Shown one piece after another: positions 11,116 through 32,359 of a DNA stretch of 64,000 nucleotides; position 1 is the first letter of the stretch, and every line of letters starts with the position of its first letter. The notes under the pieces were generated by a model. The model did not search any database, was not told where the DNA came from, and was given only the letters and a program-made list of their open reading frames with translations. A program made the position numbers and the translations under genes. This stretch comes from Aquipuribacter hungaricus (GTDB taxonomy: Bacteria > Actinomycetota > Actinomycetes > Actinomycetales > JBBAYJ01): positions 1 to 64,000 of the forward strand of contig NZ_JBBEOI010000004.1 of assembly GCF_037860755.1 (NCBI RefSeq), written 5' to 3'.

Positions 11116-11178
11116 ACGGCTCAGGACTTGCGCACGTTCCGCCCACCGAGCGTCACCGTCCGTGCCAAGCTGCCGGCT

Positions 11179-14100
11179 GTGGCCGACGACGCTCTCCCGA
11201 CCGGCATCTACGAGAGCCTCCTCACCCGCGACCTGCTCGCCCGCCTCGCGGACCTGCGGGCCATCACCGAGGACGTGCCCGACGGTCAGCAGGCCACGGC
11301 TCTCGGCGACCACGTCGGCCGCCGCGTCGCCCGTGCGCTCGCCGGCCTCGCACCTGCCGACCGGGTCGCGATGGTCAACACGCTCCTCGCGCAGATCGAC
11401 AGCGACGCGGTCGAGCCCGGCCCTCAGCAGCTGCTGTCCGTGGCCCGGCAGGAGCAGCCCGGCGTCTGGACCCTCCTCGGCACCCGTCCGGCCGTCCCGC
11501 TGTCCCGGCCCGCGCTGCTCACCAACTCCACGACCGACCCCAAGCTCGGTGCCGAGCTGCGGGCCGAGCTGGCCACGGCCGACCGCGTCGACCTGCTCTG
11601 CGCGTTCGTCAAGTGGTACGGCCTCCGTGTCCTCGAGGACCAGCTGGCGGACCTGCGGCAGCGAGGCGTCCCGCTCCGCGTCCTCACCACGACGTACATG
11701 GGCGCCACCGATCGCACGGCACTCGACCGGCTGGTGCGCGACTTCGGCGCCGAGGTCAAGGTCAACTACGAGACGCAGTCGACCCGGCTGCACGCCAAGG
11801 CCTGGCTGTTCCGCCGCCGCAGCGGCTACGACACCGCCTACGTCGGCTCGTCCAACCTCAGCCGTGCGGCCCTGCTCGACGGGCTGGAGTGGAACGTCAA
11901 GCTCGCCGGCTCCCACACGCCGGAGCTGACGGCCAAGTTCGAGGCGACGTTCGACACCTACTGGGCCGACCCCGCCTTCGTCACCTACGACCCGGACACA
12001 GACCGCGAGAGGCTCGACCAGGCGCTCGCCGTCGCCGGCGGGCATCAGGAGCGCAGCACCGTCACCCGGACGATCAGCGGTCTCGAGGTCCGTCCCTACC
12101 CGCACCAAGAGGCGATCCTCGACAAGCTCCGGGTGGAGCGCGAGACGCACGGGCACCACCGCAACCTCGTGGTGGCCGCGACCGGCACCGGGAAGACCGT
12201 CATCGCGGCCCTGGACTACGCCCGCATGCCGGGCCGGCCCTCCCTGCTCTTCGTGGCGCACCGCAAGGAGATCCTCGAGCAGTCGCTCCGGACCTACCGC
12301 GAGGTCCTGGCCGACGGGGCGTTCGGCGAGCTGTACGTCGGGGGCGAGGTGCCGGACCGGTGGCGGCACGTCTTCGCCAGCGTGCAGAGCCTGTCCGCGG
12401 ACGGGCTGCAGCGCCTGGCCCCCGACCAGTTCGAGGTCGTGGTCGTCGACGAGTTCCACCACGCCGGGGCAGCGACCTACCGCCGGCTGCTGGAGCACCT
12501 GCAGCCCGACGAGCTGCTCGGCCTGACCGCCACCCCCGAACGTGGCGACGACTTCGACATCCTGTCCTTCTTCGGCGGCAGGATCGCGTCCGAGCTGCGC
12601 CTGTGGGACGCCCTGGAGAACGACCTGCTGTGCCCGTTCCACTACTTCGGCATCAGCGACCTGACCGACCTGTCCCGCCTCGACTGGCGTGCGGGGGAGT
12701 ACAGCACCGGCGACCTGGAAAACTTCTACACCGCTGACGACGCCCGGGTCCGGATCGTCCTCAAGGAGCTCCGCGACAAGGTCCTGGACCCGACCCGCAT
12801 GCGCGCGCTGGGGTTCTGCGTGTCCGTCAAGCACGCGCAGTTCATGGCCGACCGGTTCAACGCGGCGGGCATCCCCGCGCGCTCCGTCTCCGGCGCCACC
12901 TCCCGTGAGGACCGTGCCGACTCCCTCCAGGCGCTGAAGGACGGCACGGTCAACGTGCTCTTCGCGGTCGACCTCTTCAACGAGGGCCTCGACGTCCCCG
13001 ACGTCGACACCCTTCTCCTGCTCCGCCCGACGCAGAGCGCGACGGTCTTCCTCCAGCAGCTGGGTCGCGGGCTGCGCCGGACCGCCGACAAGCCGGTGCT
13101 CACGGTGCTGGACTTCATCGGGCAGCAGAGCCGTCAGTTCCGGTTCGACCTCAAGTACCGCGCCCTCACCGGTGCCAGCCGTTCGGGGCTCGAGCGCCAG
13201 CTCGAGACAGGCTTCGGGCTCCTGCCGTCGGGGTGCGAGCTCGTGCTCGACGCGGTGGCCCGGGACGTCGTGCTCGACAACGTCCGCCGCCAGCTCAGGC
13301 TCAACCGCAAGGAGCTGCTGCACGAGGTCCGCAGCCACGGCGACCTGCCCCTGGCCGGCTGGCTGCGGGAGGCCGGGCGCGAGCTGGCGGACGTGTTCCG
13401 GGCCGGGTCCTGGACACAGCTGCGTCGGCAGGCTGGCCTCCCCACGCCCGAGGCCGGACCGGTCGAGCAGCAGCTGCTCGGGCGGACGAGCGCCTTCGCC
13501 CACGTCGACGACCCGGAGCGGGCAGCGCTGTACGTCCGCCTGCTCGGCGACGGGTGGCGCTACGACCAGCTGTCCGAGCGGGAGCAGCGCCTCGCGCGGA
13601 TGATGTTCTTCTCGCTGTGGCCCAACGGGGGCGGCCACGTCACCTACCAGGAGGGTTTCGACGTCCTCGCTGCCCACCCCGCCGTACGGGACGAGCTCCG
13701 TCAGCTCGTCGAGCTAGGACTGGCAGGCGCGGAGCACGTCACCGCGCCCTTGGAGGCCGGGCTGCAGCAGGTCACGCTTCAGACCCATGCCCACTACAGC
13801 CGAGACGAGATTCTCGCTGCCCTCGGCTGGGCGGGGATCGACGGCGTCTCGCCGCGCAAGACCCAGGGGCACGCGTCCGGCGTGGTCTGGGCCCCCGAGG
13901 CTCGGACAGACGCGTTCCTGGTGACGCTGACCAAGGACGAGAGGCACTTCTCGCCGCAGACCATGTACAGCGACTACGCCATCAGCCGGGACACGTTCCA
14001 CTGGGAGTCCCAGAACGCCACCGCGGATTCATCCGCCACGGGGCAGCGGTACGTCCACCACGCGGAGCGGGGGAGCCACGTGCTGCTGTTCGTCCGGCCC

Positions 14101-14256
14101 ACGAGGAGCACCGGCTGGGGCGGTGCGGCCACCTACCAGTGCCTGGGGCCGGCGACATACGTGTCGCACGAGGGGGAGCGGCCGATGGCGATCACCTGGC
14201 GGCTGCGGCACGGGATGCCGGTGGACACGTTCCGGGCGGCGTCCGTGGTGGCGTGA
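11179..14256 (+). CDS. PLD-like / SF2 helicase / DUF3427 multidomain protein
   Basis: 1025 residues from GTG 11179; an in-frame ATG at 11128 would add 17 unlikely residues. Domains in order: a helical N-terminus; a phospholipase D-like nuclease region with one HKD-type motif (H-A-K-A-W-L-F near residue 203, followed by GSSNLS); and an SF2 helicase with Walker A ATGTGKT near 335, a DEFH box (VVVDEFHHA) near 424, GLTATPE, and the C-terminal lobe with FNEGLDVPDV and QQLGRGLRR. A DUF3427 C-terminal domain covers roughly residues 690-1020, ending with YVSHEGERPM. The architecture recalls RadD/YejH-like helicases fused to a nuclease, and such proteins recur in defence islands. It probably unwinds and cuts foreign or damaged DNA, which is inference. 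It stands alone at the island edge. Confidence 0.9.
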   Translation: MADDALPTGIYESLLTRDLLARLADLRAITEDVPDGQQATALGDHVGRRVARALAGLAPADRVAMVNTLLAQIDSDAVEPGPQQLLSVARQEQPGVWTLLGTRPAVPLSRPALLTNSTTDPKLGAELRAELATADRVDLLCAFVKWYGLRVLEDQLADLRQRGVPLRVLTTTYMGATDRTALDRLVRDFGAEVKVNYETQSTRLHAKAWLFRRRSGYDTAYVGSSNLSRAALLDGLEWNVKLAGSHTPELTAKFEATFDTYWADPAFVTYDPDTDRERLDQALAVAGGHQERSTVTRTISGLEVRPYPHQEAILDKLRVERETHGHHRNLVVAATGTGKTVIAALDYARMPGRPSLLFVAHRKEILEQSLRTYREVLADGAFGELYVGGEVPDRWRHVFASVQSLSADGLQRLAPDQFEVVVVDEFHHAGAATYRRLLEHLQPDELLGLTATPERGDDFDILSFFGGRIASELRLWDALENDLLCPFHYFGISDLTDLSRLDWRAGEYSTGDLENFYTADDARVRIVLKELRDKVLDPTRMRALGFCVSVKHAQFMADRFNAAGIPARSVSGATSREDRADSLQALKDGTVNVLFAVDLFNEGLDVPDVDTLLLLRPTQSATVFLQQLGRGLRRTADKPVLTVLDFIGQQSRQFRFDLKYRALTGASRSGLERQLETGFGLLPSGCELVLDAVARDVVLDNVRRQLRLNRKELLHEVRSHGDLPLAGWLREAGRELADVFRAGSWTQLRRQAGLPTPEAGPVEQQLLGRTSAFAHVDDPERAALYVRLLGDGWRYDQLSEREQRLARMMFFSLWPNGGGHVTYQEGFDVLAAHPAVRDELRQLVELGLAGAEHVTAPLEAGLQQVTLQTHAHYSRDEILAALGWAGIDGVSPRKTQGHASGVVWAPEARTDAFLVTLTKDERHFSPQTMYSDYAISRDTFHWESQNATADSSATGQRYVHHAERGSHVLLFVRPTRSTGWGGAATYQCLGPATYVSHEGERPMAITWRLRHGMPVDTFRAASVVA

Positions 14257-14347: not shown

Positions 14348-15355
14348 TCAGAAGTCGTGGCCTAGATCCTCCGCTACGTCGCCCTTCCTGAGCGCCGCTG
14401 GTAGTTCCAAGCCGTACTTCTCAGCCAGGAATCGAGTCCGGCAGTACCGCTGCGCGTGCGAGGACACACGCCCGAGCGTGGTCGCGTTCACACCAGCTCC
14501 CACCACGATGGCGAAGACCGAAAGTGCCTTCGACATGTGCTGCACGGGCACCTTTCCGCCCGTGTACCACTTGGCCATGAACTGCTCCAGCTTCGCGACT
14601 AGCACGTGGTCGTCGCGCAATTTCGGAGACCAGCGCACACGCTTGGCAGCCGCCTGATGGGCGCGCCCAGCGTCTCGCAGCGGCACGATCTTCGTCGCCT
14701 GCCGCGCAAGAGCACCGGTTGCCAGCTCCGTGATGAAATCACTTTCCGCGGGTGATGCGCCATCAATCCCGTATGAGTAAGCGATGCGGGTGGCGATGGA
14801 GACACTCAAGATCTGCAGTATCACCACGTCAGCGGTGACAGACAGCGGTAGCCCCGCAACCGGGATCAGCGCGACGGCGCCCATCCCGGCTCCTTCCAGG
14901 GCCCCGGCCGTCCGCCACTTGAGCGTGTCCCGAGCGACCAGTCGGTCGCAGTCACGTAGGTCCCGTCCACTGAGTTCCGAAAAGTCTCCGATGTCCACTC
15001 CGCGGGCGCGTGCCAGCTTGACGACGGAAGCAGGGTCGATGAGGTCCGTGGCCCACGCGTCAACCAGTTCGATCAGTCCCACGGCGCCCTTGAGGGCTGG
15101 CTGCAGCGCATGATCGGCGATCGTGTCGCCGACGCTCGTCGCCGCGGCTTTGACCGGCCCCGGGACCACTCGACCCGCGGCAGCAGCGGCCCCGCCGGCT
15201 GCTCGCGACACCGCCCGACCGCTACTGGCCACCGCCTTCGGCATGCCACGCCGGCTGGACTTCCGCTCCCAATACTTATTGAGATCCTGCCACTGCTCCC
15301 GCTCGTACGGGGACATGGCCCCCGGCCCCCGGTTTGGCTGTCCGTCCAGATTCAC
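14348..15355 (-). CDS. EcsC family protein
   Basis: 335 residues from GTG 15355, chosen because AGGAGG lies 4 nt upstream; ATG 15316 is an alternative. It opens with the EcsC-type SPYEREQWQDLNKYW segment, followed by an Ala-rich amphipathic stretch, then the hydrophobic GAGMGAVALIPVAGLPLSVTADVVILQIL region that is the hallmark of EcsC, and a helical C-terminus. EcsC proteins are peripheral or membrane-embedded and of unknown biochemistry. The gene follows the DUF262 operon by 53 bp on the same strand and may be its last member. Base composition is visibly less GC-rich than in the flanking core genes, suggesting transfer. Confidence 0.85.
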   Translation of the reverse strand: MNLDGQPNRGPGAMSPYEREQWQDLNKYWERKSSRRGMPKAVASSGRAVSRAAGGAAAAAGRVVPGPVKAAATSVGDTIADHALQPALKGAVGLIELVDAWATDLIDPASVVKLARARGVDIGDFSELSGRDLRDCDRLVARDTLKWRTAGALEGAGMGAVALIPVAGLPLSVTADVVILQILSVSIATRIAYSYGIDGASPAESDFITELATGALARQATKIVPLRDAGRAHQAAAKRVRWSPKLRDDHVLVAKLEQFMAKWYTGGKVPVQHMSKALSVFAIVVGAGVNATTLGRVSSHAQRYCRTRFLAEKYGLELPAALRKGDVAEDLGHDF

Positions 15356-15408: not shown

Positions 15409-17409
15409 TTAGGTTGCCGTGCCTTGGTCGCCGCTGCCGGGCTGGCTCACAGCGCCGAGGTGGTGATCGGGCGGCGGCGCGTTCGCCACGTCCTCCCCCA
15501 GCAGTCGCTCCATCTCTCGGCAGTGGGCGTCGATCGCCTCGTCGTCCCACGTCTCAGCGTGCTGGGCCATGAGCTGCAGCTTCGGGCTCTGAGCGATCAA
15601 CCTGATGAAGTCGCTCTTGCGGCGCGGCGTGTTGTTGCTGAACTTGGAGTTGGCGCCGACGCTGATGAGAGCGAGGTTGCCCAGCGAGTTGAGCCCCTGC
15701 GGGAGTTCTACGTCGTCCGCCTGGTCCCGGTCGGGTTGCTGCGGGAAGAAGTGCTCGACGGAGTTGCGGAACGTGAACCGGTAGCCCGTCCTGCTGTCCC
15801 GCTGTAGTAGCAGGTAGTCGAGGTAGGTGAAGACGATTCGCTCGATTGCGAAGCCTGAGGGCGTCTTACCGGCGAAGTAGGCGGCGCGGACCCGCGCCCT
15901 GGCGAAGTCCTCGAGCCGTGAGACTACGGCCGCGCCGGACGTACTGCCGTCTCTGTCGAGCTCGGGCATGCGCAGCACCGCGGTGATCCAGTGCATCGTC
16001 CGCGGCGAGGTGTACGTGATGCGGAGCATGGACTGCAGCAATAGCGCTCGGCGATGCAGGGCGTGATCCTCTTCGGAGGCCTCGGTACCTGCGAAGGCGT
16101 TCTGGTAGGTCACCGAGGACGGCTTCGTGCCCTGGGTCAGCCGGCGCAGCGACCAGTCTCCATCGTCGCCGTTCCTGCCCGTGTACTCCCGCTTGAGCAC
16201 GAAGTTGTCGAAGACGAACCGGCACCTGAGCAGGGTCTCGGCGAAGCGCTTTACGGCGTCGCGGCTCCCTGTGTGATCCGTCTGGCTCCCGAACCGCTTG
16301 TCGAACAACACAATCAGCTTGTTGTCGTCGAGTCCACCGTCGTCCGTGTCGTCATCGGCCGAAGGGCCGGTGTCGAGGACCTTAAGTACATGGAGCAGGA
16401 AGCTGGCAAAGATGATGGGGGAACGGAAGCGGTCAGAGCCCTCCCCGTCGGCTGCTGCCGAGGGCTCAGGCGCTCGTGCGTAGGCGACCAAGGCCTCCTC
16501 GAGGCCGCCGTCCTCGTGGCTGCCGACCACGACGACGCCTTCGCCACGAAAGCGTTGCAGGAACGTGTTGAGCGTGGCGAAGTCATGTCCCTGCAGCGTG
16601 TCGTAGCTCGGCCCAAAGATCTGCCTCCGCAGGCTGACGGGGTCGACCGCCCTGGCCACGCGGGTGAGGCTCATCTGGACGTAGGTGTCCATGTCGGCGC
16701 AGGCGTCCCAGATCCAAGCGAAGCAGTTCTGGTCGTCGGGCTCGTCGCCGAGCAGGCGCATCAGCCGTGCCTTGACGATGTCGACCTGCTCCAGCTGCTG
16801 GCCCCTGGTGTTCATGATCTCGAAGTAGCGGTTGAGGTCGGTGGACGCGTCGAGGGTCGCCCGCACCAGGCGGACCCGTTGCAACAGGAAGGTGGCGAAC
16901 GCCTGACGTGCCGTCCCGTTGTCGTCTTTGCCGAGATGGGTGGCCAGGGACTGCTGGATGATCCGGAATGCCGTGTGCACCGACGCGGCCGGGCCGCCAC
17001 CCCCGTCTGGCGAGCCGGGGTTTGCCAGGGCGGCTGCAGCCCCGGGCCGGGATGCGTACAGGAGGTAGGGCCCCGGCCGGTGGGGGTCAGCCTGGGTGTC
17101 GAGGGCTTCGAGTAGCAGTGACAGCGTGGTGAGCCGCTGCTGGCCGTCGATGACGTCGAAGTGCCGGAGTTCTGTCTGTGTCGTCCCGTCGGGCCGCTCG
17201 GCCACCACGAGGTTGCCGAGGAAGTACGTGGCCGCGTCGTCGACCTCCGCGCCCGCGTCCCTGGCGGCGCTCCAGATGTCGTCGATGAGCTGCCCGATCT
17301 CCTCCTCGCTCCAGGAGTAGTTCCGCTGGTAGATCGGGACCTGGTACGAGGCATCCTGGAAGACCTCGCCGATGGAAAGCAGTTCGGCCTGTACCGGGCG
17401 CTCAGTCAT
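15409..17409 (-). CDS. DUF262 and DUF1524 (GmrSD-like) protein
   Basis: 666 residues from ATG 17409; GGGAGG lies about 5 nt upstream. The N-terminal DUF262 domain has the motifs VPIYQRNYSW and FDVIDGQQR (the ParB-like nucleotide-binding site), and the C-terminal part has the DUF1524 HNH-type motif SVEHFFPQ followed by LGNLALIS and SNNTPRRK. The DUF262 plus DUF1524 combination defines GmrSD/SspE-type enzymes, NTP-dependent nucleases that attack modified or phosphorothioate-sensed DNA. It overlaps the stop of the upstream DUF262 gene by 8 bp and is the third downstream partner of the helicase gene. Nuclease activity is expected from the family but is not proven here. Confidence 0.9.
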   Translation of the reverse strand: MTERPVQAELLSIGEVFQDASYQVPIYQRNYSWSEEEIGQLIDDIWSAARDAGAEVDDAATYFLGNLVVAERPDGTTQTELRHFDVIDGQQRLTTLSLLLEALDTQADPHRPGPYLLYASRPGAAAALANPGSPDGGGGPAASVHTAFRIIQQSLATHLGKDDNGTARQAFATFLLQRVRLVRATLDASTDLNRYFEIMNTRGQQLEQVDIVKARLMRLLGDEPDDQNCFAWIWDACADMDTYVQMSLTRVARAVDPVSLRRQIFGPSYDTLQGHDFATLNTFLQRFRGEGVVVVGSHEDGGLEEALVAYARAPEPSAAADGEGSDRFRSPIIFASFLLHVLKVLDTGPSADDDTDDGGLDDNKLIVLFDKRFGSQTDHTGSRDAVKRFAETLLRCRFVFDNFVLKREYTGRNGDDGDWSLRRLTQGTKPSSVTYQNAFAGTEASEEDHALHRRALLLQSMLRITYTSPRTMHWITAVLRMPELDRDGSTSGAAVVSRLEDFARARVRAAYFAGKTPSGFAIERIVFTYLDYLLLQRDSRTGYRFTFRNSVEHFFPQQPDRDQADDVELPQGLNSLGNLALISVGANSKFSNNTPRRKSDFIRLIAQSPKLQLMAQHAETWDDEAIDAHCREMERLLGEDVANAPPPDHHLGAVSQPGSGDQGTAT

Positions 17410-18778
17410 GGTGGCCTCCCTCAATGATGCGTAGTGAGGCGGTCAGCGTCGGGTCGGTATCAGGATCGCTGGCCGGTGTGGCTGGCGTAAGCACGAGGCG
17501 ACGGAGTTCGCGGGGCCTCGACGCCGCCTTGGTGATGGCGAAAGCGGACCCCGCCTCGCGAGCCCGGTTGTCGACCGAAGCGAATTGCACGCGTGCCTTC
17601 GTCACGCGCAAGAAGTACGCCCAGTGGAACAGGCGGTCGCGATGCTCGTCGATGTCCTTGTCGCCGAACTTGTTGGTGCACTGCAGCACCGCAGCGAGGA
17701 ACAGCTCGGAGACGTAGCGGAAGCGGCTCTTGCCCGATCGCTCGCGGAAGTCCGCGTCGGTGGAGGCGAAGTCGTCGTGCTCCGGCGGATAGTGCTCCTT
17801 GCGGAGCCGCCGAAGCTCTTCGTCCATGAAGGCGACCATGTCGAAGAAGGCGCGCCCCGCGGTGACCGGCGCGTCGAGCTGAAAGCGGGCGCGCTGAGCG
17901 TCCCGAATGGCTGCGGCGGCTTCGTCACCGGCGCCGGATTGCGTGCGGTTCCACGCCGCCAGCATCGGCACGGCGGCCTGTGCCGCGAGGTGGTACCGAT
18001 CGGCGGGCGATGCCACACCGTGAGGTGAGATGCCCTTGAAGAGGTCGATGTCGCGAACGGTGAAGCGCCGGGCGGGCAGCCCGTTGGACCACTGCCGGAT
18101 CCGGTAGAGGTAGGCGGAGAACAGCCGGTCGAGCTGGTCGTCGGGGATCCTCTCCCAACCTTCGACGACGGCGGACTGCATGGCCTCGCTCTCGTCCTGC
18201 ATCGCCCGCAGGTGGTGCGCCTTGAGCAGGTCGTGCGGCAGAAGCGGCTTGCCGCGGTAATTCTGGGAGTCGAATACGCGGAAGGCCTCGTCCGCATCGT
18301 CTGTCTGCACCTGGACGAGCCAACAGCTCGACCGGATGTACTCCTTCAGGGCCTGTCGCTTGTCGATCTTCCTGATCCGAGCGGCGAGCTGCGTGCGAAC
18401 GAGGACGACCGGTGAGGTGGGCGCTTCGCTAGGCAGCACCTTCCCGTCGTGTCGGCCGTCAAGGAGCTGAACGATCATCAGGAGGGTGAGGAGGCGCTGC
18501 TGTCCGTCGATCACGTCGAGGCGGTCGTCGCCGTGGCGGTGCAGGATTAGCGCGCCGAGCACGTACGAAGGTGCGCCGGTGGTGGTAAAGGCGTCATGGA
18601 TGTCGTCCAGGAGCTGCAGCGCGGTCGCGGGGGTCCAGCTGTAGGGCCGCTGGTAGCGGGGGATGGAGAGCCTACGCTGGTCGAGCACGCTGCCGACCGT
18701 GACGACGTCCACCCGCCGGAGCTCGGGGGCGGTCGAACCACGGGTGTCCGTTGTCACCGTGAGTTCGTCGATGCTCAT
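17402..18778 (-). CDS. DUF262 domain-containing protein (no clear HNH)
   Basis: 458 residues from ATG 18778, with GAGGAG upstream. The DUF262 core is present: IPRYQRPYSW near residue 39 and LDVIDGQQR near 82. The C-terminal part is shorter than in the neighbouring gene and lacks the DUF1524 HEFFP/HNH motif; it instead has a helical region with KSRFRYVSELF and DEHRDRLFHW. It is translationally coupled on both sides: its ATG overlaps the TGA of the 103-aa gene (ATGA) and its end overlaps the next DUF262 gene. The pair probably forms a hetero-complex in which one subunit binds nucleotide and the other also cuts, by analogy with split GmrS/GmrD. Confidence 0.88.
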   Translation of the reverse strand: MSIDELTVTTDTRGSTAPELRRVDVVTVGSVLDQRRLSIPRYQRPYSWTPATALQLLDDIHDAFTTTGAPSYVLGALILHRHGDDRLDVIDGQQRLLTLLMIVQLLDGRHDGKVLPSEAPTSPVVLVRTQLAARIRKIDKRQALKEYIRSSCWLVQVQTDDADEAFRVFDSQNYRGKPLLPHDLLKAHHLRAMQDESEAMQSAVVEGWERIPDDQLDRLFSAYLYRIRQWSNGLPARRFTVRDIDLFKGISPHGVASPADRYHLAAQAAVPMLAAWNRTQSGAGDEAAAAIRDAQRARFQLDAPVTAGRAFFDMVAFMDEELRRLRKEHYPPEHDDFASTDADFRERSGKSRFRYVSELFLAAVLQCTNKFGDKDIDEHRDRLFHWAYFLRVTKARVQFASVDNRAREAGSAFAITKAASRPRELRRLVLTPATPASDPDTDPTLTASLRIIEGGHHD

Positions 18779-19086
18779 GCGCTCCTCGCCGGTTCGATGT
18801 TGTGCCTGGGCAGCAGGTGGGTCGCCATCCCTTCGACTTGCGCCTCGACGGCCTTGAGGTCGGGGGTGATGTCGACGGCGTGCACGTGCAGGGTGACGCC
18901 GGCGCCGGGGATGGCGTACCGGGCGGGGACCTCGCCGGCGGTGCCGGCGTGTATAAGGTGCGCGTCGGGCAGGCGAAAGCGTCTCGCTGGTGGGGCGAAG
19001 GGCACGGGGCGTTCCGGACGCAGCATCATGCCTGCCGTTGCTGAGCCTCCCAGTCGGCATAAGTAAGCCCTTCCTTGGTGACTCAA
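18775..19086 (-). CDS. Uncharacterised 103-aa protein in the helicase-DUF262 operon
   Basis: I do not recognise this protein. The frame opens with TTG 19086 overlapping the helicase stop (TTGA), or with ATG 19029 or 19026; it ends in an ATGA overlap with the DUF262 gene. Visible parts are a Pro/Arg-rich segment (RPERPVPFAPPARRFR), a beta-like region around IPGAGVTLHVHAVDITPDL, and a C-terminal helix VEAQVEGMATHLL. No Cys clusters, membrane segment or catalytic motif are evident. Double overlap with both neighbours and natural-looking composition argue that it is a real, coupled gene, perhaps a small adaptor. The start codon is uncertain. Confidence 0.55.
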   Translation of the reverse strand: MSHQGRAYLCRLGGSATAGMMLRPERPVPFAPPARRFRLPDAHLIHAGTAGEVPARYAIPGAGVTLHVHAVDITPDLKAVEAQVEGMATHLLPRHNIEPARSA

Positions 19087-22000
19087 CGGATGCGCCCGTT
19101 GTCGCTACCCGCATTCATGATGCTGGCGGCCTGGCTGGGGCTGGTGAATCGTTGGTCGTTCACTAGGCGAAGCACCGAGCGCTCGCTAGGGACGGTCTGA
19201 AGCTGTCCGTTGCGGATCAGGTGATCCCGGCGGCTCTTGTATCCGGGAAGCATCACGCCCACCACGTTGCTGGCGTACGAGCCACCAAGCACGACGAAGC
19301 CTTCCTCGGTCAGCCGTGCCTCGGCATGACGCTCGGGACTGCGTGAAACGCGAAGCCTGAAGACGGGGGAATCGATGTCTCCAATCGGATCGGCGTGCGT
19401 CGCAATGACGTGATTCTCGGATTCTACGGTCGGTCTGAGTGCCTCCGGCCCGGTGTCCGGTGGACTGGTCGGCGTCGCATTAGGTGCCACATCCCCGGTT
19501 GCATGCTCGTCAACGTGGTCGAGTCTGACAGTCGGCTCATCCTTCTCCCCGGTCGCTTCGAGGACACTCGTGGCGGTTGCCTCGGCAGGGGAATACCACC
19601 CCGCCGGTCGCACCCCCCGCTCGTCCAGCAGGGCCCACAGCCCGGCCAGCGCCGCCGCCTTGTCGACGTAGAAGTCAGACTCCCGAACCCGGAAGAACGT
19701 CCACCCGCACCGCTCGAGCTCACGCTGCCGCCCGAGGTCGCGCTGGTACTGAGCCGGTCCGTGCCAGTGGTCCCCGTCGCACTCCACCGCCACCCGGCTC
19801 TGCCCGCCGACCACGACAAGGTCGATCGAGTAGCCCATCGCCTCGTGCTGCGGCACGACCGTGTAACCGCGCTCCACGATCCGGTTGAACACCCGCTGCT
19901 CAAAGAGTGAGTCGAAGGGCGGGACGCGCTCGTCCTCGGGCACGACATGCTCCACCGCTCCCTCGACGGCCGTGTCGCCGCGTCGGGCGACCGACGTGCA
20001 GTACTCGAGCAGCCGGTAGCGCAGGTCCTCGGGGTTGGTCAGCTCCGCCAGGGTGACGGAGTGGAACAACCACAGCTGGTCCTTCGCCCGGCTGGCTGCG
20101 ACGTTGTACCGCTGGACGTACATCTCCTGCGTCTGCGGCATCAACCGTTGCCCCGGCTCGGCCGCTGCAACCATCGACAGGAACACGACGTCGCGCTCAG
20201 AGCCCTGGAAGTCGACGGAGTCTCCGCACCGCAGCTCGCGCACCTCCCACTCGTCCGGAATCCGGTCCAGGAGCGCTTTCTCGATCGTGCGCGCCTGCGC
20301 CTTTCCCAGCAGCGAGATCACGCCCATGGTCAGCCCGTCGTACCGGGGGTCGGCGCAGCACTTCACGACCTGCTCGACGATGGCGTCCACCTCCGGCTGG
20401 TTGATCTTCTGGGTGACGCCGCGGGTGAAGCCGCCCGGCACGTGCACCGGCACGATCGGGTCCAGCCGGTCAGCGCCGTACTGCCGCACCGGCAACAGGC
20501 GGATGCCGTCGGGCTCGTAGGCAATGGCGTTGGAGAAGCCGATGATCTCTGGCACGCAGCGGCGGTGCTCAGTCAACGTGATCATGCCGCCGAATCGCAT
20601 CCGAGCAGAGTCGAACAGGCTGACCTTCGGGTCCTCCCAGGTCGCGCGGTACCGGTCGTCCGGGATGTACCGCATCGCCAGGTCGCGCAGCTGCTGCTGC
20701 TCCACCCCCACCGCGGACGGCGACACCTGCCGGTCGTCGCCGATGACGACGATCCGCCTGGCCAGGTATTGCAGGAACGTCGCCTCGGCACCTGCCTGCG
20801 ACGCCTCGTCGATGATCACGACGTCGAACATGTCTGGCTCGACGCGAAGCTGCTCTGCGATCCGGTACAGCGGCATGATCCAGACGGGTACCGCCGGGCG
20901 ACACCTCGCCATGGCATCGCGGATGTCGGCCTGGCGCTGCCCGGCGTACTTGCCAGTGCCCTTGCCCAGTCGTCGGACCAGCTGGGCGTACTGGAGCAGG
21001 TCCGCCTTGCGCTGACCGCTGAGCCGCTCGTCGGACACTGCGTGCGCCCACGCCCGGGTGGACGCAATCGTCTGGACGTGTGTGCGGATCTCCGTCTCGA
21101 GCCCGGCCAGCCGCTCCTGCAGGGCGTTGACGTCCGCGGACTGGATGCTGAGGATCCAGGTGCCGGTGGCAGCCCATCGCCAGGCCTCGGGCAGCGACCG
21201 GAGCCGTCCCGCCCACAGCGCTGCGTCACGGTCCTGGGAGACGGCTGCCGCAAGGCCAGGCAGGTGCCGGCCGATCCGTTCGGTCAGGCTGGTGTGACGG
21301 GCGAGGTCGGAACGGACACGGAGCACGTGAGTCACCCGGCGGTGCGCGGTGTCGTAGGCCTGCGGGTCACGGTTGTCGACCGCGGTGGCGAGGTGCCCGA
21401 CGGCCGGTGCTGCGTCAGCCCACTGCACCACGTCGGTGAGGTCACGGTTGAGCCGTTCAAGCGGTGCGGTCGCGTTGGACAGCGCATCGGCTGCCGAAGC
21501 CGCGTCGACGGTGGCCGCGTACGCGGTGACGGCGTCGAGGGCGTCCCAACGGGGGGTGGGCAGCCCAAGCTGGGCGAGCCGAGTCTGTTGTCCAGCGAGC
21601 TCGTCTGCCAGGGCCAGGACCCGATCGAGGATGGACAGCTCTGTCACGTGCCAGCGCAACCGCTCCCCTGGGGTGTCCTCCTGCGGTATCCGCAGCCCGA
21701 CCGGCCACTGTCGGTCGAGGTCGTCGAGAAGGCGGGTGACGTTGCACCACGTGACGAACGCGTCGAGCGTCTCGTGCGACGTCGGGGGCAGCCCGTTCAC
21801 GCGGACCGAGTCGAACAACGGTTGGCTCTCCTTGACGACCTTGGTCGTCAGCCACCCGATCTTGGGTTCACCGGCGGTATCGGTCTTGAGGGCACCGCCG
21901 GGGGCGAGGTGGTCTCGGACGGCTGCGGCCATCCGCGCCAGCGGGTCCAGGCGGTCCTCGTCCACCGTGACCGCGAAGGGTCGGGGCAGCAACCGGAGGA

Positions 22001-24068
22001 GCTGCTCCACCTGGGGGACGCGGGAGGCCACCTCGTCGCGGCGGGCGCGCCAGCCGTGGTCGCGTCCCTTCTGGACATCGCCCAGGGCGTCGCCGATCCA
22101 CTGCTCCCGGCGCTCGGACAGCTCACGTGCCTCGGCGGCCAACCGGTGCAGCGTGGTCTGCACCTCCGTGCGGGCCCCGGGGGACAGGGTGCGCATGACG
22201 TCGAAGGCGCCGTGGCTGCGGACGGCCTCGTGCGTCGCGTTTCGTGATACGGCCTCCCGCTCCGCGTGGACCAGCGCGGCGAAGTCAGCAGGGGAGGGGA
22301 GCCGGTCGAGGTCGACCAGGCGTGCCCCGGCCTCCCCCCTGTCCTCTGGGGTGTGCTCCTGAAGGTGAAGGTGCAGCCACTCGGCGGCGTCGGTCACCCT
22401 CAGCAGGCAGTCACCGCGGACCAGACCACCTAGCACGTCCTCGACCCACTCGTGCTGGGGGCGCTCCTCCTGGTGGCGGGCGGCGATGACAGCCAGCGAG
22501 CCTCGGTACCCCAGGTGCTCGTGCTGGCGCACGTCCCCCTCACGAGCAGCGAGCAGCTCAGAGAAGGTGTTCGACCGTCGACGACGCAGGTCCTCGATTG
22601 AGGCGAGGGCGCGGTCCACGACCCGTCGCGACGTTGCGCCGTCATGGTCGGCCGCCCGTGAGGCAATCGACTCGACCGCGGTCTTGAGGCTGGCCATGTC
22701 CTCCCGACCTGCGCCCACGACGGAGACCGCCAGAGACCGCACCTGCTCCGGCAGCTTCTCGCGAACCTCTTTCAGGGCCCGGTCCGTCTGCGCCGTGACG
22801 AGCACACGCTGTCCGCGAGCGAGCAGGTGCGAGATGAGCACCGCCGCGGTGTGGGTCTTGCCGGTGCCGGGTGGTCCCTGGACCAGGGTCTGAGCCTTTC
22901 GGTCCACGGTCTCGACTACCTCACGCTGCCGGTCGTTGACCGGCATCGGCAGGAACACCTCGTCGTCGACGGGGATGACAGCGCCGTCGGCGCTGATCGC
23001 CTGCACCGGCGGGACGTGATCAGGGTCGATCAGGGGGAGTAGTCCGTCAGGTACCACGCCCGTGCTCTCGAGCTGCTTCACGATGGCCTTGTAGATGTCG
23101 GCGATGCCGTTGCGGGACCGGTTGCGCAGGATCAGTGCGGGGGCGAACGAGGCCCTGGCCTCGACCCCGGTCGCCGGCGCCTCCAATGCCGTGTCATACG
23201 ACCCGGCTGCCGAGACCGAGTGGGCGAGGGCGCTCAGCGGGCCATGGAGCGCTGCGGAGTCCAGGGGGTGGCCGGCATACTCCTCGAGCGCCCTCTGCGC
23301 CCGGGTAGCGTCCGGCCAGCTGGGCACGACCTCGGGGTCGAGCATCTCCAGCTCGACGTTGAGGGTCTGCAGAGCCGCGTTCACGCGGACCGACAGGCCA
23401 CCGGTGGCCGCATCGAAGTCGATGGCGCACGGGCTCGTGACCAGGTGCCGCCGCACGGTCTCGTGACCGAGCGGACGCCATCCCAGCAGGCCGACCCCCA
23501 GCACCAGCTCGAACTCCTCTGGTTGGGCGGTCGACCGGGTGTAGGCGTGGTGCAGGTCGGCGTACAGGTCACGGACAGGTTGGGCCGCGAGCTCCTGCTC
23601 GGCCCAGGCTTGCCAGCGAGGAAGCCACCCCTCGAAGAGGTTGGTGATGCCGGGAACGTCGGTGACGTCGACCGATGAGCCGGGTCCGTCCAGGTCTTCG
23701 CTCGGCACCAGCCGCGAGGGACGGAGCTCCGGCGCGCGCGCCGGGTCGTCCCAGTCGAGCGAGGTGAGCCACGGCGTCAGGCGCTCGTCAGGCACGGGTG
23801 CCACGACGACCGGAACACGTCGGACGAAGAGGACGGGCGCACCGTCGGCCGGGGGGTCCTCAGCCAGAAGGGGGTGCTCGACGGCGTCGTGCTCCGGCAG
23901 GTCGACGAACCAGAGGAGCCGCTGCTCCTCGCGCCGGTACACGCTGATATCGCGGACCGGGGTGCTGCGCAGCTCCTGGGCGGCACGCAGGTAGCGGAAG
24001 AGTCCGAGCGCCGACTGCAGGCGCGGGTCCGTCATGTCACTACTGGGCCGTTCGATGGCGCTGGTCAC
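19083..24068 (-). CDS. Upf1-like SF1 helicase with Vsr-like nuclease and DUF4357
   Basis: 1661 residues from GTG 24068, with GGAGG 7 nt upstream; the longer upstream frame is not coding. A novel N-terminal region of about 350 residues precedes AAA_11/AAA_12 helicase motifs: Walker A GPPGTGKTHTAA near residue 397, a long helical insertion, then Walker B VVIIDEASQAG near 1082, GDDRQVSPS, the TEHRR motif and a final NVAASRAKDQLWLF. Next comes a Vsr/MTES_1575-like PD-(D/E)XK nuclease (FEQRVFNRIVERGY ... YSIDLVV ... VAVECDGDHWHG) at about residues 1380-1470. A linker and a DUF4357 domain (EEGFVVLGGSYAS, SPSQAASIM, NGRIR) end the protein. First gene of the coupled operon; it probably translocates on and cleaves nucleic acid. 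Confidence 0.88.
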   Translation of the reverse strand: MTSAIERPSSDMTDPRLQSALGLFRYLRAAQELRSTPVRDISVYRREEQRLLWFVDLPEHDAVEHPLLAEDPPADGAPVLFVRRVPVVVAPVPDERLTPWLTSLDWDDPARAPELRPSRLVPSEDLDGPGSSVDVTDVPGITNLFEGWLPRWQAWAEQELAAQPVRDLYADLHHAYTRSTAQPEEFELVLGVGLLGWRPLGHETVRRHLVTSPCAIDFDAATGGLSVRVNAALQTLNVELEMLDPEVVPSWPDATRAQRALEEYAGHPLDSAALHGPLSALAHSVSAAGSYDTALEAPATGVEARASFAPALILRNRSRNGIADIYKAIVKQLESTGVVPDGLLPLIDPDHVPPVQAISADGAVIPVDDEVFLPMPVNDRQREVVETVDRKAQTLVQGPPGTGKTHTAAVLISHLLARGQRVLVTAQTDRALKEVREKLPEQVRSLAVSVVGAGREDMASLKTAVESIASRAADHDGATSRRVVDRALASIEDLRRRRSNTFSELLAAREGDVRQHEHLGYRGSLAVIAARHQEERPQHEWVEDVLGGLVRGDCLLRVTDAAEWLHLHLQEHTPEDRGEAGARLVDLDRLPSPADFAALVHAEREAVSRNATHEAVRSHGAFDVMRTLSPGARTEVQTTLHRLAAEARELSERREQWIGDALGDVQKGRDHGWRARRDEVASRVPQVEQLLRLLPRPFAVTVDEDRLDPLARMAAAVRDHLAPGGALKTDTAGEPKIGWLTTKVVKESQPLFDSVRVNGLPPTSHETLDAFVTWCNVTRLLDDLDRQWPVGLRIPQEDTPGERLRWHVTELSILDRVLALADELAGQQTRLAQLGLPTPRWDALDAVTAYAATVDAASAADALSNATAPLERLNRDLTDVVQWADAAPAVGHLATAVDNRDPQAYDTAHRRVTHVLRVRSDLARHTSLTERIGRHLPGLAAAVSQDRDAALWAGRLRSLPEAWRWAATGTWILSIQSADVNALQERLAGLETEIRTHVQTIASTRAWAHAVSDERLSGQRKADLLQYAQLVRRLGKGTGKYAGQRQADIRDAMARCRPAVPVWIMPLYRIAEQLRVEPDMFDVVIIDEASQAGAEATFLQYLARRIVVIGDDRQVSPSAVGVEQQQLRDLAMRYIPDDRYRATWEDPKVSLFDSARMRFGGMITLTEHRRCVPEIIGFSNAIAYEPDGIRLLPVRQYGADRLDPIVPVHVPGGFTRGVTQKINQPEVDAIVEQVVKCCADPRYDGLTMGVISLLGKAQARTIEKALLDRIPDEWEVRELRCGDSVDFQGSERDVVFLSMVAAAEPGQRLMPQTQEMYVQRYNVAASRAKDQLWLFHSVTLAELTNPEDLRYRLLEYCTSVARRGDTAVEGAVEHVVPEDERVPPFDSLFEQRVFNRIVERGYTVVPQHEAMGYSIDLVVVGGQSRVAVECDGDHWHGPAQYQRDLGRQRELERCGWTFFRVRESDFYVDKAAALAGLWALLDERGVRPAGWYSPAEATATSVLEATGEKDEPTVRLDHVDEHATGDVAPNATPTSPPDTGPEALRPTVESENHVIATHADPIGDIDSPVFRLRVSRSPERHAEARLTEEGFVVLGGSYASNVVGVMLPGYKSRRDHLIRNGQLQTVPSERSVLRLVNDQRFTSPSQAASIMNAGSDNGRIR

Positions 24069-24251: not shown

Positions 24252-25853
24252 ATCGGCGCCGACCGCCTCGGGCAACTGCTCGCCCTCCGAGGGGACCTGA
24301 CGCGACTGGAGTGCCACGCCGTCGTCGTCCCCATGTCCGGGGACCTGGCCGTCACGACGCCCTGGCTCCCGCTGGTGGGTGCGCACGCCCCCCGGGCGGA
24401 CGGGCAGGGATGGCACCACCTCACGATGGAGCGCCCTCAAGGCTGGGGCACGGAGGACCGTGTGCTCCGGGCGGACAAGGTAGGCCGGCGTCAGATCTGG
24501 CTCGCCCGCACGGACGCCTGGGACAAGGACGGTGCCTGGGTGGCCGCGAGCCTCGTCCAGGCCATCGAGCGGGCGGCTGCCGAGCTGGTCGGCGTGACCG
24601 ACCGCGCGCTCCCACTGGTCGGGGTGCCGCTCGCCGGCTCAGGGGCAGGTGGGCTGGCGGAGCGTCGCGGGGAGGTGGTGGCGGCCGCCGTCCCGGCCCT
24701 CCAAGACGCCGCAGAACGGCTGGGAGTCGACGTGGCACTCGTCCTGTACGACGACCAGGACTTCGCCGCCGTCCAGGCGGCCCGGGTGGGCGCGCACGTG
24801 CCAGGCTCGGACGCCCTGACGCCTGTTGAGCTCGACCGGGCGGACGAGATGGGTCACAAGGCCGCCCGGGGGGAGCTGGTCCTCTTCCTCGGTGCCGGGG
24901 TCAGCATGGCCGCAGGCTTGCCGAGCTGGAGGGGCCTGCTGCACGAGCTGGCGGAGCGGGCGGAGCAGGACCCCAAAGAGCTGAGCTCGCTGGCACCACC
25001 AGACGCCGCGCAGATCCTGAGCGACATCTTGGGAGACGACTTCCACCAGTTCATGGCGCAGCGGTTCCGGCTCTCGACCTGCGCGCCGGCGCACATGCTG
25101 CTGGCGGGCCTGCGTACCGACGCCGTGGTCACGACCAACTACGACAACGGCTACGAGCTCGCATCCGAGAGCCTGCACCCGAAGGAGCACCCGCTCCGGG
25201 TCCTACCCCGCCAGCACGCTCAAGCGGGGTCACCGTGGCTGCTGAAGATGCACGGCGACGTCGAAGCTCCCAAAGACATCGTCCTCACGAAGTCGCACTA
25301 TCTGGACTACGCCGACGCACGCTCTCCCGTGACCGGCATGGTGCAGGCGCTCCTCATGACCCGGCACATGCTCTTCGTCGGGTTCTCCCTCGTCGACGAC
25401 AACTTCGCTCGTCTCGCTCACCAGGTCCGCCGCCTGATGCACGACGCGCACCCGCAAGGCCGAAAAGCGGGGACAGTGCTCGCGCTGCAGGCCGATAGGG
25501 CCAGGGAGCGGTTGTGGCGAGACGACCTCGATCGCGTGTGCCTGGCCGACGAGGACCCTGGTGTAGAGCCTGATCGCAGGGTCCTGGTGGCCGCGAGACG
25601 GCTAGAACTCTTCCTCGACCGGCTGTCCTGGTGTGCAGAGTCCGCCCGACACGGTCGCGAGGTGCTCCTCCTGGACGGTCGGTACGACGCCATGCCACGC
25701 ACTCCCGCGGAGACATCCCTTCGAGACAAGCTCAACGATCTTCGCGGCGAGGTGAGTGCCGACGAGCAGCAGACCGCCGCCTGGCACGTCGTGGAAGAGG
25801 CTCTCGCCACGTTGGGTGGACGGAACCGGGCCCCCGGCCCGGAACGGCGCTGA
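24252..25853 (+). CDS. Macro-like domain fused to SIR2-family NADase
   Basis: 534 residues if read from ATC 24252, 506 from the first canonical start, ATG 24333. The upstream part is included because it completes a macro-domain opening (LRGDLTRLECHAVVVPMSGDL) and because GAGGGAG sits 7 nt before the ATC; ATG 24333 has no such site. The macro-like part (about residues 10-175) continues with PLVGVPLAGSGAGG and VDVALVLYDDQDF. The SIR2 domain follows: FLGAGVSMAAGLPSW, VVTTNYDNGYE, KMHGDVEAP and LFVGFSLVDDNF, with the catalytic Asn and His kept. SIR2 effectors destroy NAD and macro domains bind ADP-ribose-type ligands. A sensor-effector fusion for abortive defence is inferred. It is divergent from the helicase operon. 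Confidence 0.8.
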   Translation: MGADRLGQLLALRGDLTRLECHAVVVPMSGDLAVTTPWLPLVGAHAPRADGQGWHHLTMERPQGWGTEDRVLRADKVGRRQIWLARTDAWDKDGAWVAASLVQAIERAAAELVGVTDRALPLVGVPLAGSGAGGLAERRGEVVAAAVPALQDAAERLGVDVALVLYDDQDFAAVQAARVGAHVPGSDALTPVELDRADEMGHKAARGELVLFLGAGVSMAAGLPSWRGLLHELAERAEQDPKELSSLAPPDAAQILSDILGDDFHQFMAQRFRLSTCAPAHMLLAGLRTDAVVTTNYDNGYELASESLHPKEHPLRVLPRQHAQAGSPWLLKMHGDVEAPKDIVLTKSHYLDYADARSPVTGMVQALLMTRHMLFVGFSLVDDNFARLAHQVRRLMHDAHPQGRKAGTVLALQADRARERLWRDDLDRVCLADEDPGVEPDRRVLVAARRLELFLDRLSWCAESARHGREVLLLDGRYDAMPRTPAETSLRDKLNDLRGEVSADEQQTAAWHVVEEALATLGGRNRAPGPERR

Positions 25854-25961: not shown

Positions 25962-28900
25962 TCAGGGGTTCTCGGGTAGGCGCCCTCCGGGGCGGGCGAA
26001 CACGAGCCCCGTCGAGCTCGGCGCCGTCCCGGTGACCTGCTCGACGGCACGGGCGTAGGCGTCGAGCTGGGGGCCGTACCGGGCCTGCTTAGCCGCGACC
26101 TCCTCCGCCGTCACGGCGCGGTCGGTCTTGTAGTCCAGGACAGTGAGACCACGGTCCTTCGAGTCGACGAGCAAGTCGATGTACCCCTCGAGGAAACGGT
26201 CTGCGTCGCGCACCACGAGGTAGACCTCGCGCAGGGCGCGGGCGTCGTCGGTCAGCGCCTCGGTGAGCGAGGGTGACTCCAGCGCCGACCACACCCGCCC
26301 GGCCACGTCGGACTCCAGGTCCGGGATGTCGGCCTCGGCGCACGCGAGCCGGCTCAGGCCCGCCACCTGGGCCGTGGTCGCGGCGGTGAGGCTCGGCAGG
26401 AGCTCCAGCACCCGGTGGGTGGCGGTGCCGATCGCGGCCCCGCGACTGGACCCGCGGCGCACCACCGGCGCGATGTCCTCCGGCGCCTCCTTGTCCGGCT
26501 CGGGGTCCGCGGCGGCGACGGTGAGGGAGGTAGGGCTCGTGGCCACCCGGGTCGCCAGGTCCTCGAGCAGGTCGGCGCGCCCTTCTAGGAACACGACCCG
26601 GTCCGGCAGGGGATCGTGGGCGACGGCCAGGTGCGCGGGCTCGGCGGGGGAGGGTACGGCGGGCGCCCCGTTCGGGGGCTGGAGCTCCCGGCGGGCGATG
26701 CCCTCGTCGGCCAGCAGTCCCCAGAGCTGCTGGGCCGACGACCGCTGAGCCTCTGCCCCCTTCGGGGGCGAGTGGTAGCAGCCCAGTACGAGGTGGTCCT
26801 CGGCGCGGGTCGCGGCCACGTACAGCAGCCGGATGTCCTCCTGGCGGCGAGCCAGCTTCTCCTGGGTGACCGCCTGCGCGTACCCGCTGGTCTCCAGCAG
26901 ACCGGTCTTGAGGCGGATCTGCGGTCCGTCGTCGGTCCACAGGACGGTGTCCTGCCGGGTGACGATGCTCCCCAGCCCGGCGACCATGGTGATGGGGAAC
27001 TCCAGCCCCTTCGCGCCGTGGATCGTGAGGATGCGGACGGCGTCGTCGTCGGGCTCGGGGACGACGGTCTCCAGCACGTCGGCGTCCTCGGCGATCTGCC
27101 GGACGGCCCAGGCGACGAACCGCCCCAGGCCGGACCCCCCGCTGTCGCACCAGGCGCGCGCCTGGTCGACGAGGAACCGCAGCCGCCGCCAGTGGTCGCG
27201 GGGCCGGTCCTCGACGGTCGTGAGCTCCACCAGCCGCAGCTCGCGGGTGATCGCGTCGAGGAGCTGGTTGACCGGCACCCACCACCGCTGGTCGTGCCAG
27301 CCGCGCAACGTCGCCAGGGCCGCGGCGACCGGGTGCCCTTCCAGACCCGCGGGGACGTCGGCGAAGAGCGACCAGCGACCGCCGGCCGCCCGCCAGGTCA
27401 CCAGGTCGACGTCGGAGCAGGCCAGCCCGGGGTGGCGGAGCGAGGCCAGCAGGGCGACCTCGTCGGCCGGGTCGTCGACGGCCTGGAGCAGGGTGACGAG
27501 GCCGCGGACTGCGTCGGTACCCCACACCAAGGAGCGGCTCTCGATCCGGTAAGGCACCTGGCGCTCCTGCAGCGCACGCTCCAGCGCGGGCAGCGAGGCG
27601 CGGGTCGGCAGTAGCACCGCCATGTCCTGATAGCGCGCCGGCCGGCCGTCGCGGACCTGCCACCGCCCCTTTGCGCGCACCATGACGTCGGCCAGGTGGG
27701 TTGCTTCGGCGAGCCGCAGGTCCTTGGCCTTCACGCCAGCTTGCGGTCCGCCGAGCAGCAGCACCGGAGGAACGTCGTCGACGGCCGTCCGGGAGGGCAG
27801 CAGGTCGGCGTACACGATGCCGTCGCCGGGGTCGAACAGGGTGCGGAAGGCGGTGTTGGCCGCGGTCAGGACGCCGGGCACGCTCCGGAAGTTGACCTCC
27901 AGCCGGGGCCCGGCCGCGTGACGCGCCCCGACGGCGTTGAACAGGGTGACGTCCGCGCCGCGGAACCGGTAGATCGACTGCTTGGGGTCCCCGACGAAGA
28001 ACAGCCGCGCGCCCTCGACCTGGGTCTGGCTCCAGTCCGACCCGAGCCCGCCGGGGTCGCCGGCGAGCAGATAGGCGATCTCGACCTGCAGCCGGTCGGT
28101 GTCCTGGAACTCGTCGACGAGCAGCGCCGGCCAGCGGGCGTGCAGCCGTGCGCGCACCTCGGGGTCGTCGCGGAGCACGTCGCGGGCCAGCACCAGCAGG
28201 TCGTGGTAGTCCAGCTCGCCGGTGTCTCGGCGGCGCTCGGACTCCGCGAGGAGCCAGTCCTGCACCCGCGCCGTCAGGGCCTCGGTGGCGGCGGCGCCGA
28301 CCGTCTGGAGCACGGCCGCGCGGGCGGCGTCGGCCTCTTTCAGATCCGCGACGATCGCCTGCTTGTCCAGGCCGGCGCGGGCCCAGTCAAGGCCAGTGCC
28401 CTTGTTGCCGGAGGGGAGATTCACGGTGGTGAGCCGTTCGAGCAGGTCGAGGGGGTCGGTCAAGCCGGTTAGGTCATTGAGCAGGGGCGCGACGGTGGAC
28501 CGCAGGTGCGCGGCGAGCTTGTCGTCCGGCCAGGCGTCGGGGTCACGGAGCGCTCGGCGCAGCGGTGCGGCGATCTCCTCGACGCCGATCGGCGGGGCGG
28601 GCCTGTCGACGAGTGGCCGGTCGCGCAGCCGGTCCCAGGACGCGCCGAGCGCGGTGGCGACATCGGCGAGCCTGTCGATCGTGAGCCCCAGGGTCAGGGC
28701 GCGGAGCAGGTGCTCCCGGATCGCCCCGTCGTCCAGGAGGGCGTCGAGGAAGTCCTCCCAGGACCGTTCGGCGCCGTCGCTGCCGGCCAGGGCACCGGCG
28801 ACGGAGAAGCCCGGCGGCAGCCCGGCCTCCAGCGCGGCGTCGGCCAGGATGCGCGAGGCGAAGCCGTGCAGGGTGGTGAGGACCGCGTCGTCGAGGTCGT

Positions 28901-32200: not shown

Positions 32201-32359
32201 CCCCCGGCGCAGGGTGACCCCCGCCAGCGAGGTCGGCACCACGACCTCCACCGGGGCGAGCGGGTCGCCCGCCTGGGCTGCGGTGACGGCCCGGCCCAGC
32301 GCTGCGGCGAGGCTCCCACCGGCCTCGGGGCGGATGACGGTCCCGCGGGAAAAGGCCAT
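29198..32359 (-). CDS. AddB-like PD-(D/E)XK nuclease with Fe-S cysteines
   Basis: 1053 residues from ATG 32359, with no clear Shine-Dalgarno site. The N-terminal and middle parts follow the AddB/RexB helicase-like layout, but the first ATP-binding loop is degenerate (RPEAGGSLAAAL instead of G-x-x-G-x-G-K-T). The C-terminal nuclease domain has the Fe-S staple cysteines typical of AddB, one in WATCPAQHLF and three in CTYCPFDRVC, around the catalytic FTGSIDRVDR ... LVVIDYKTGSG. It is coupled to the AddA gene by a 4-bp overlap. The protein should form a heterodimer with AddA, with AddA as the motor. Confidence 0.85.
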   Translation of the reverse strand: MAFSRGTVIRPEAGGSLAAALGRAVTAAQAGDPLAPVEVVVPTSLAGVTLRRGSAGPRGWANVRFGSLPQLAERLCTVELALGPGPARRPLTALDRRRAVAEMLAAAATSPLVAAARRQRATADLLAGAFTELDDARVGPGQAALSPRGDEVRLLHTAYRSQIAGLLTGPEVMALAAAVASRDPLPPVVLVAAGPLRPDERSFLDAFGARLTVVIAPAAHPGTLEWLGAEPTSPASPVTAVTLAPDPEEEVRIAVRAAVAHLQEHGCRPERIGIAYVSPEPYTRLLSEQLTAAGLPHHVTGDRNLAQTLTGRALTGLMALHARGLPRADLLRWMSDGPRVDGDGRRLPVTRWERVSREAGVSRGPAQWQQRLSRHADELRARALTEGADTARLDREVADAESLLVEVQRLDALVTAVDAAPGWREASDALVVLVRGVMGTRAQVDGWSAREGSDSPEVALEQAACDAVLDSLRAVSTTPTPFSDAALRSELEDALGSGVRSATTLGRGLLLAPVASFTGADLDLLLVLGCTEDALPARRRENPLLRDDDRTALSPSLATVASRRVVERTRWAAALACSGEVRLSYPRADPRSQRRQFASPWLLAEASRLHGSTVTAAALDGDIVDAPWLACPPSFEASLRGATTRLNLQELDVAAALHGDVDALAAADPRLQRGLEAARSRRAGSFDAWSGGVDALPAELRAGVDAHLSATKLQVWATCPAQHLFGTVLRVRPLEDRGAGDTIDARDKGTLVHDVLETLVRSRLPEDGTAGLDPQQEWTPEDVAEAVALLEAKAADLTQRGLTGREILWAAQLSRLRRTLLRILAVDSDLRRSRRSTPVATEAAFGRDGADPLVVTLPRQGQVPFTGSIDRVDRTDDGDLVVIDYKTGSGSGYDAIPKHPSLDEAADLVDRGKKLQLLLYGLAARQLEGLPEAAVQAWFWFVEQGALQRGGPVGAHQERRLLEVLDVTVGGIRDGVYPAHPGPESWRSNRQGWENCTYCPFDRVCPTGRAEAWTRLRTAAPVRPYATLVDPEPAADPATHPAADRVVDPEATL

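Follow-up and report, generated by a model that had tools for sequence, protein, structure and literature searches.

A TgvAB/GmrSD-ECOR17-type pair of DUF262 genes behind a helicase-nuclease gene in Aquipuribacter hungaricus: very probably two defense modules in one island

Enzymes of the GmrSD family use DUF262 domains for binding and hydrolyzing NTP and for sensing modified bases; cleavage by the DUF1524 His-Me nuclease follows (PMC11411939, PMC10952713). TgvAB of Vibrio cholerae is encoded by two genes, the first with DUF262 alone and the second with DUF262 and DUF1524, that lie between hsdS and hsdR. Neither gene is dispensable, and the system restricts T-even phages with modified cytosine (PMC11411939; PMC12409362). 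GmrSD-ECOR17 of Escherichia coli, composed of GmrS1 and GmrSD2, has a TgvAB-like architecture, depends on E582/H583, and likewise requires both genes for the restriction of T-even phages with modified cytosine (PMC12373910). Here we analyze two adjacent DUF262 genes of Aquipuribacter hungaricus that follow a large helicase-nuclease gene on the minus strand of contig NZ_JBBEOI010000004.1 (assembly GCF_037860755.1); the whole stretch analyzed, positions 1 to 64,000 of that contig (64,000 nucleotides), is referred to as the window. An initial annotation had taken this run of overlapping genes for a single coupled system with four or perhaps five members. Our analysis indicates that the locus is very probably a defense-island stretch in which two independent modules, the helicase-nuclease and a TgvAB-type pair, lie head to tail.

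The first gene of the pair (positions 17402 to 18778, minus strand, 458 amino acids) is TgvA/GmrS1-like and encodes DUF262 (GmrSD_N) followed by DUF7834, with no nuclease domain. The second (15409 to 17409, minus strand, 666 amino acids) is TgvB/GmrSD2-like and encodes GmrSD_N and GmrSD_C, that is, DUF262 and the His-Me nuclease DUF1524 (15511 to 15825, minus strand; Pfam GmrSD_C E = 2e-11). The stop of the first and the start of the second share 8 bp (ATGACTGA, 17402 to 17409). These Pfam matches, GmrSD_N in both proteins and GmrSD_C in the second, bear out the GmrSD-like component that had been proposed. In comparison with E. coli, the TgvA-like protein is 31% identical to a GmrS1-like protein over 451 amino acids (E = 2e-58) and the TgvB-like protein is 28.5% identical to a GmrSD2-like protein over 719 aligned positions (E = 3e-71). 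The E. coli TgvB-like homolog carries the nuclease motif S580-V581-E582-H583, the residues mutated in the published GmrSD2-ECOR17 (PMC12373910), a correspondence made by residue numbers and not by letter-for-letter comparison, and the E. coli pair has hsdS in front of it and a type I R gene behind it (hsdS-A-B-R). An AlphaFold model of the window TgvA-like protein (pLDDT 85.5) has DndI and then BrxU as its nearest solved folds; that of the TgvB-like protein (pLDDT 81.4) is nearest to SspE, DndI, and BrxU. The E. coli homology, the position of the motif, the hsdS context, and the GmrSD-family fold together place the pair in the described two-gene kind: judged by sequence, it is an actinobacterial member of the type IV restriction family TgvAB/GmrSD-ECOR17. 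The gene combination had been thought to match no named system; its pair part matches TgvAB (PMC11411939) and GmrSD-ECOR17 (PMC12373910), which had gone unrecognized.

Conservation of the pair was surveyed in the best 80 of at least 507 species-representative loci from an alignment search, in loci from the same order, and in 12 further regions, 11 of them from Vibrio; some of these loci represent one genome fetched twice (L020 and L084; L080 and L177). Profile searches placed the two DUF262 genes side by side on one strand in 96 of the 101 loci, with most pairs overlapping, and some of the exceptions are contig ends. Besides an archaeal genome bin, the pair loci come from Actinomycetota, Bacteroidota, Bacillota, Pseudomonadota, Spirochaetota, and further groups. 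HsdS is the commonest identified upstream neighbor (17/90), and the downstream neighbor contains HSDR_N in 5 of 70 cases, flanks that agree with those published for tgvAB (PMC11411939). Invariant residues are Q43R44, D91GQQR95, and F169-N173 in the TgvA-like protein and Q28R29, D88GQQR92, and F196-N200 in the TgvB-like protein; in the His-Me nuclease, H553, N578, and N587 do not vary among 35 TgvB-like family members and N592 hardly does, a set that matches the E582/H583 motif of the E. coli homolog. Searches with the window DUF262-only protein recovered relatives in 12 of the 297 genomes of the order and in some 1,000 plasmid records, the majority of them from Klebsiella, and the Klebsiella plasmid copy that was read has the same two genes, overlapping.

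Several side observations concern the pair. Conjugative plasmids of Klebsiella often carry relatives of the DUF262-only protein, which fall into two main groups, one ~51% and the other ~30% identical to the window protein; ~900 Klebsiella plasmid records contain them, and one surveyed locus (L019) is a Klebsiella pneumoniae IncF plasmid. Such plasmids may confer modification-dependent phage restriction. Rare solo or decayed cases, with a TgvA-like gene and no TgvB-like gene nearby, occur in L210 (9305 to 10915) and L103. A third DUF262/DUF1524-like gene (709 to 711 amino acids, 89 to 98 bits to the TgvB profile) lies directly behind the pair at 13347 to 15482 in L020/L084 (Brachybacterium epidermidis, L084), 5460 to 7589 in L023, and 4512 to 6647 in L208, all from the same order, and may represent a three-gene variant. 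Elsewhere in the window, a minus-strand gene with REase-ARP (PF22558)/PDDEXK_13 (34019 to 35431) belongs to a family that is also found upstream of two DUF262 pairs in other genomes.

The gene preceding the pair (19083 to 24068, minus strand, 1,661 amino acids) encodes a superfamily 1 (SF1), Upf1-like helicase matching Pfam AAA_11/AAA_12, with a C-terminal MTES_1575 (Vsr-like) nuclease (residues 1389 to 1480; 19629 to 19904, minus strand; Pfam E = 7e-30) and a weak DUF4357 tail (residues 1614 to 1660; 19089 to 19229, minus strand) that scores 28 bits against a Pfam cutoff of 38.4; residues 1561 to 1660 match PADLOC PDC-S14 at 54 bits. Translation starts at a GTG at 24068, behind a good Shine-Dalgarno sequence (GGGGAGGAC). 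A search of 395 genomes of the class found relatives at 1e-60 or better in 47. Among 18 helicase relatives the GPPGTGKT Walker A motif and the nuclease residues D1416, E1429, and D1431 are nearly invariant, and 17 of the 18 aligned family members have the nuclease domain. The window helicase has DUF4357 and the 17 others lack it, individual ones matching GreA_GreB or Lsr2 instead. The protein is a stand-alone helicase-nuclease near Hhe, ProA, and PDC-S37 and, by the thresholds of the respective models, outside Hhe and ProA. It also matches the MkoA and MkoC models of Mokosh, but this reflects shared SF1 similarity, and other Mokosh features were not found. Our search found no usable literature on the mechanism of Hhe or ProA. 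Relatives on four viral contigs (L015, L016, L017, L018) share 33% identity with the window helicase; in two of these a Phage_Mu_F-like gene lies just downstream, suggesting phage or prophage carriage of the family. The defense character assigned to these genes holds, with the helicase near Hhe/ProA/PDC-S37 and the pair in the TgvAB/GmrSD-ECOR17 family, and Pfam recovers every domain originally called: the helicase, the Vsr-like nuclease, the DUF4357 below cutoff, the two DUF262 domains, and the one DUF1524.

A single four-gene system was rejected on the strength of co-occurrence surveys in both directions. No ortholog of the window helicase was found beside a DUF262 pair in any other genome examined, and a profile able to detect distant SF1 helicases found none in the 80 species-spread pair loci. 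Conversely, helicase relatives lack any DUF262 gene nearby in 20/20 actinobacterial loci drawn from the class-level search and 4/4 viral contigs, and no recurrent partner gene was found for them in this sample. The idea of one coupled system is not supported: the pair recurs without the helicase, the helicase relatives recur without the pair, and the 103-amino-acid reading frame and EcsC gene that had been counted with them are absent from all fetched loci; the check that the initial annotation proposed, a search for the gene set in other genomes, was run and did not find the genes together. Both modules are probably transcribed together; the functional coupling had been deduced from the overlaps. 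Overlapping genes in a defense island need not form one system, which is a caution for such readings.

Some points weigh against the reading of two independent modules, one of them a TgvAB-type pair. Of 15 further genomes of the same order that carry the pair, 3 have an SF1 helicase gene beside it, versus 0 of 79 elsewhere (Fisher p = 0.003), a post hoc comparison that is confounded by clustering in defense islands and by the abundance of SF1 helicases in high-GC actinobacteria. In L024 the helicase (DUF4011-MTES-DUF3320) lies 45 bp upstream on the same strand, in L026 a helicase without a nuclease lies 117 bp upstream on the same strand, and in L022 a DUF4011-MTES helicase is convergent beside the pair; all three are nonorthologous, with 22 to 27% identity to the window helicase (P0006). 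In addition, the link to TgvAB was drawn through the E. coli homolog with its published residue numbers, architecture, and gene context and not through the V. cholerae TgvA and TgvB sequences; a search of the genus Vibrio for the V. cholerae genes gave 12 pairs, none of them with H571, and the E. coli pair was used instead. We consider a functional or regulatory link of helicase and pair in this clade unlikely.

Such a link might take the form of a coupled system confined to some actinobacteria, in which the helicase-nuclease with its DUF4357 tail would open or extend the cut made by the pair or would be licensed by it. The genes are co-directional and overlapping or nearly so, nonorthologous SF1 helicases stand directly upstream of the pair in L024 and L026 and convergent to it in L022, and DUF4357 has been reported in some GmrSD proteins (PMC4619093). 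However, the three neighboring helicases differ in type (two have the architecture DUF4011-MTES-DUF3320 and one lacks a nuclease) and share little identity with that of the window, the 80 species-spread loci have no such helicase, and the published pairs function without one (PMC11411939, PMC12373910), so that we give the coupled system little credence. It is similarly doubtful that, in some actinobacteria, SF1 helicases or helicase-nucleases have been repeatedly recruited immediately upstream of TgvAB-type pairs to yield a combined modification-sensing restriction and DNA-degrading system, of which the window, with a DUF4357-tailed helicase of its own, would be the tightest case.

For the pair itself, it is very unlikely that the proteins resemble SspE and DndI in sensing a backbone modification, such as phosphorothioate, instead of modified cytosine. 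The nearest solved folds are DndI (9jfl) and SspE, and the PADLOC SspE and Orf5 models match the pair weakly, but this fold is common to all DUF262 nucleases and the two-gene architecture fits TgvAB/GmrSD-ECOR17, which acts on modified cytosine. Phosphorothioate systems, moreover, need modification genes, and a DndC homolog was not found in the genome (SspBCD were not searched separately). Least probable of all is a pair of the GrwAB type, with a wider range including 7-deazaguanine DNA: GrwAB likewise comprises two DUF262 proteins, one with DUF1524 (PMC12137116), but its nuclease-bearing gene comes first and its second gene has an extended multidomain C terminus, whereas in the window the order is reversed and the nuclease-less first gene ends in DUF7834.

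Under the preferred reading of a TgvAB-type pair, the TgvA/GmrS1-like and TgvB/GmrSD2-like proteins would probably form a complex whose DUF262 domains may sense modified cytosine in phage DNA, for example, glucosylated 5-hydroxymethylcytosine. NTP hydrolysis at the DGQQR motif would release the His-Me nuclease, which would then cut the modified phage DNA. The helicase, from its domain content and by analogy with Hhe-like proteins, may load on phage DNA or on damaged or replicating DNA, which its fused nuclease would cleave. Our analysis shows how the genes are arranged and overlap, which domains and catalytic motifs they encode, that the pair is homologous to E. coli/Vibrio-type pairs, and that it is conserved by itself; its activity in A. 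hungaricus, like the complex, the substrate, and cotranscription, is inferred.

Between the helicase gene and the pair lies a 103-codon open reading frame (ORF) of doubtful reality (18775 to 19086, minus strand). Its TTG start shares 4 bp with the helicase stop (TTGA, 19083 to 19086), and its stop shares 4 bp with the start of the DUF262-only gene (ATGA, 18775 to 18778). The TTGA overlap is by itself weak evidence for a gene, since such a start arises at every TGA stop that does not follow a C. The ORF has no ribosome-binding site, and its first ~52 codons score as noncoding (-0.43, -0.17) and its last half as coding (0.50, 0.09). No homolog was found in the 297 genomes of the order, 72,556 plasmids, or the viral contigs, and there was no match in Pfam, NCBIfam, PADLOC, or PHROGs; the weak order-level matches were to a glycosidase-like gene and to a frame interrupted by a stop, and the ORF was rejected as a conserved small component. 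Its listing as a gene is not upheld, and it does not recur in any fetched locus. It could be a decayed gene, a very local gene, or a product of chance in high-GC DNA. Both DUF262 genes and the EcsC-family gene that follows them have clear ribosome-binding sites of their own, so their translation would be independent of this ORF. The EcsC-family gene (14348 to 15355, minus strand; Pfam EcsC E = 9.5e-10) starts with a GTG at 15355, 53 bp past the final stop of the DUF262+DUF1524 gene, the distance first reported. It had been suggested as a fifth member, but no EcsC relative was found in any fetched locus, and it was rejected as a member, not being conserved with the gene set. The coordinates, the strand, and the three overlaps of 4, 4, and 8 bp were all found again in the sequence.

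Further genes were noted near the locus. A SIR2_2 protein that is ThsA-like (PADLOC, 97 bits) is encoded divergently from the helicase (24333 to 25853, plus strand), and a relative of it lies near a helicase relative in L068. Another island defense gene (11128 to 14256, plus strand) encodes a PLD-ResIII-DUF3427 type IV methyl-directed restriction enzyme with 1,237 bits to PADLOC mREase_IV. A UvrD-PDDEXK and PDDEXK gene pair (25962 to 32404, minus strand) is AddAB/AdnAB-like in appearance. In a partial empty-site comparison, the helicase, the DUF262 pair, and the right-hand UvrD/PDDEXK gene were all missing from the two same-genus genomes; because the UvrD-PDDEXK gene has no match in them, it may belong to the island and not be a housekeeping gene.

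The two-gene restriction kind itself was already known. The TgvAB/GmrSD-ECOR17 family, whose tested members have so far come from V. cholerae and E. coli, spans phyla that include Actinomycetota, as well as an archaeal genome bin. The two genes are almost never separated, which supports an obligate two-protein machine, and the survey defines invariant residues in the nuclease-less partner with DUF7834. Both the wide conservation and these defined residues should be useful.

Compared with described systems, the helicase shares with Hhe (NCBIfam NF042953) an SF1 helicase core and a C-terminal MTES/Vsr-like nuclease, in keeping with the Hhe-like piece noted initially, but it has neither DUF4011 (no Pfam match) nor DUF3320 and scores 98 bits against a cutoff of 2,000. 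Its similarity to ProA (NCBIfam NF058533) covers helicase and nuclease at 151.8 bits, far under the cutoff of 1,500 bits. PADLOC PDC-S37, a candidate single-gene system only, is similar over helicase and nuclease (159 bits, with the best stretch limited to residues 1044 to 1486, for a model with no given cutoff). The pair has the DUF262 NTPase fold and DGQQR motif of BrxU, SspE, and DndI and the His-Me nuclease of BrxU and SspE, but those two enzymes combine sensor and nuclease in one protein, whereas the window has two. It is homologous over its full length to the E. coli pair with E582/H583, differing from GmrSD-ECOR17 in its sequence divergence. With TgvAB it shares motifs and gene order, DUF262-only before DUF262+DUF1524, and its homologs commonly follow hsdS, as published for tgvAB (PMC11411939), whereas the window pair itself lies outside a type I restriction-modification cluster and is preceded by a helicase-nuclease gene.
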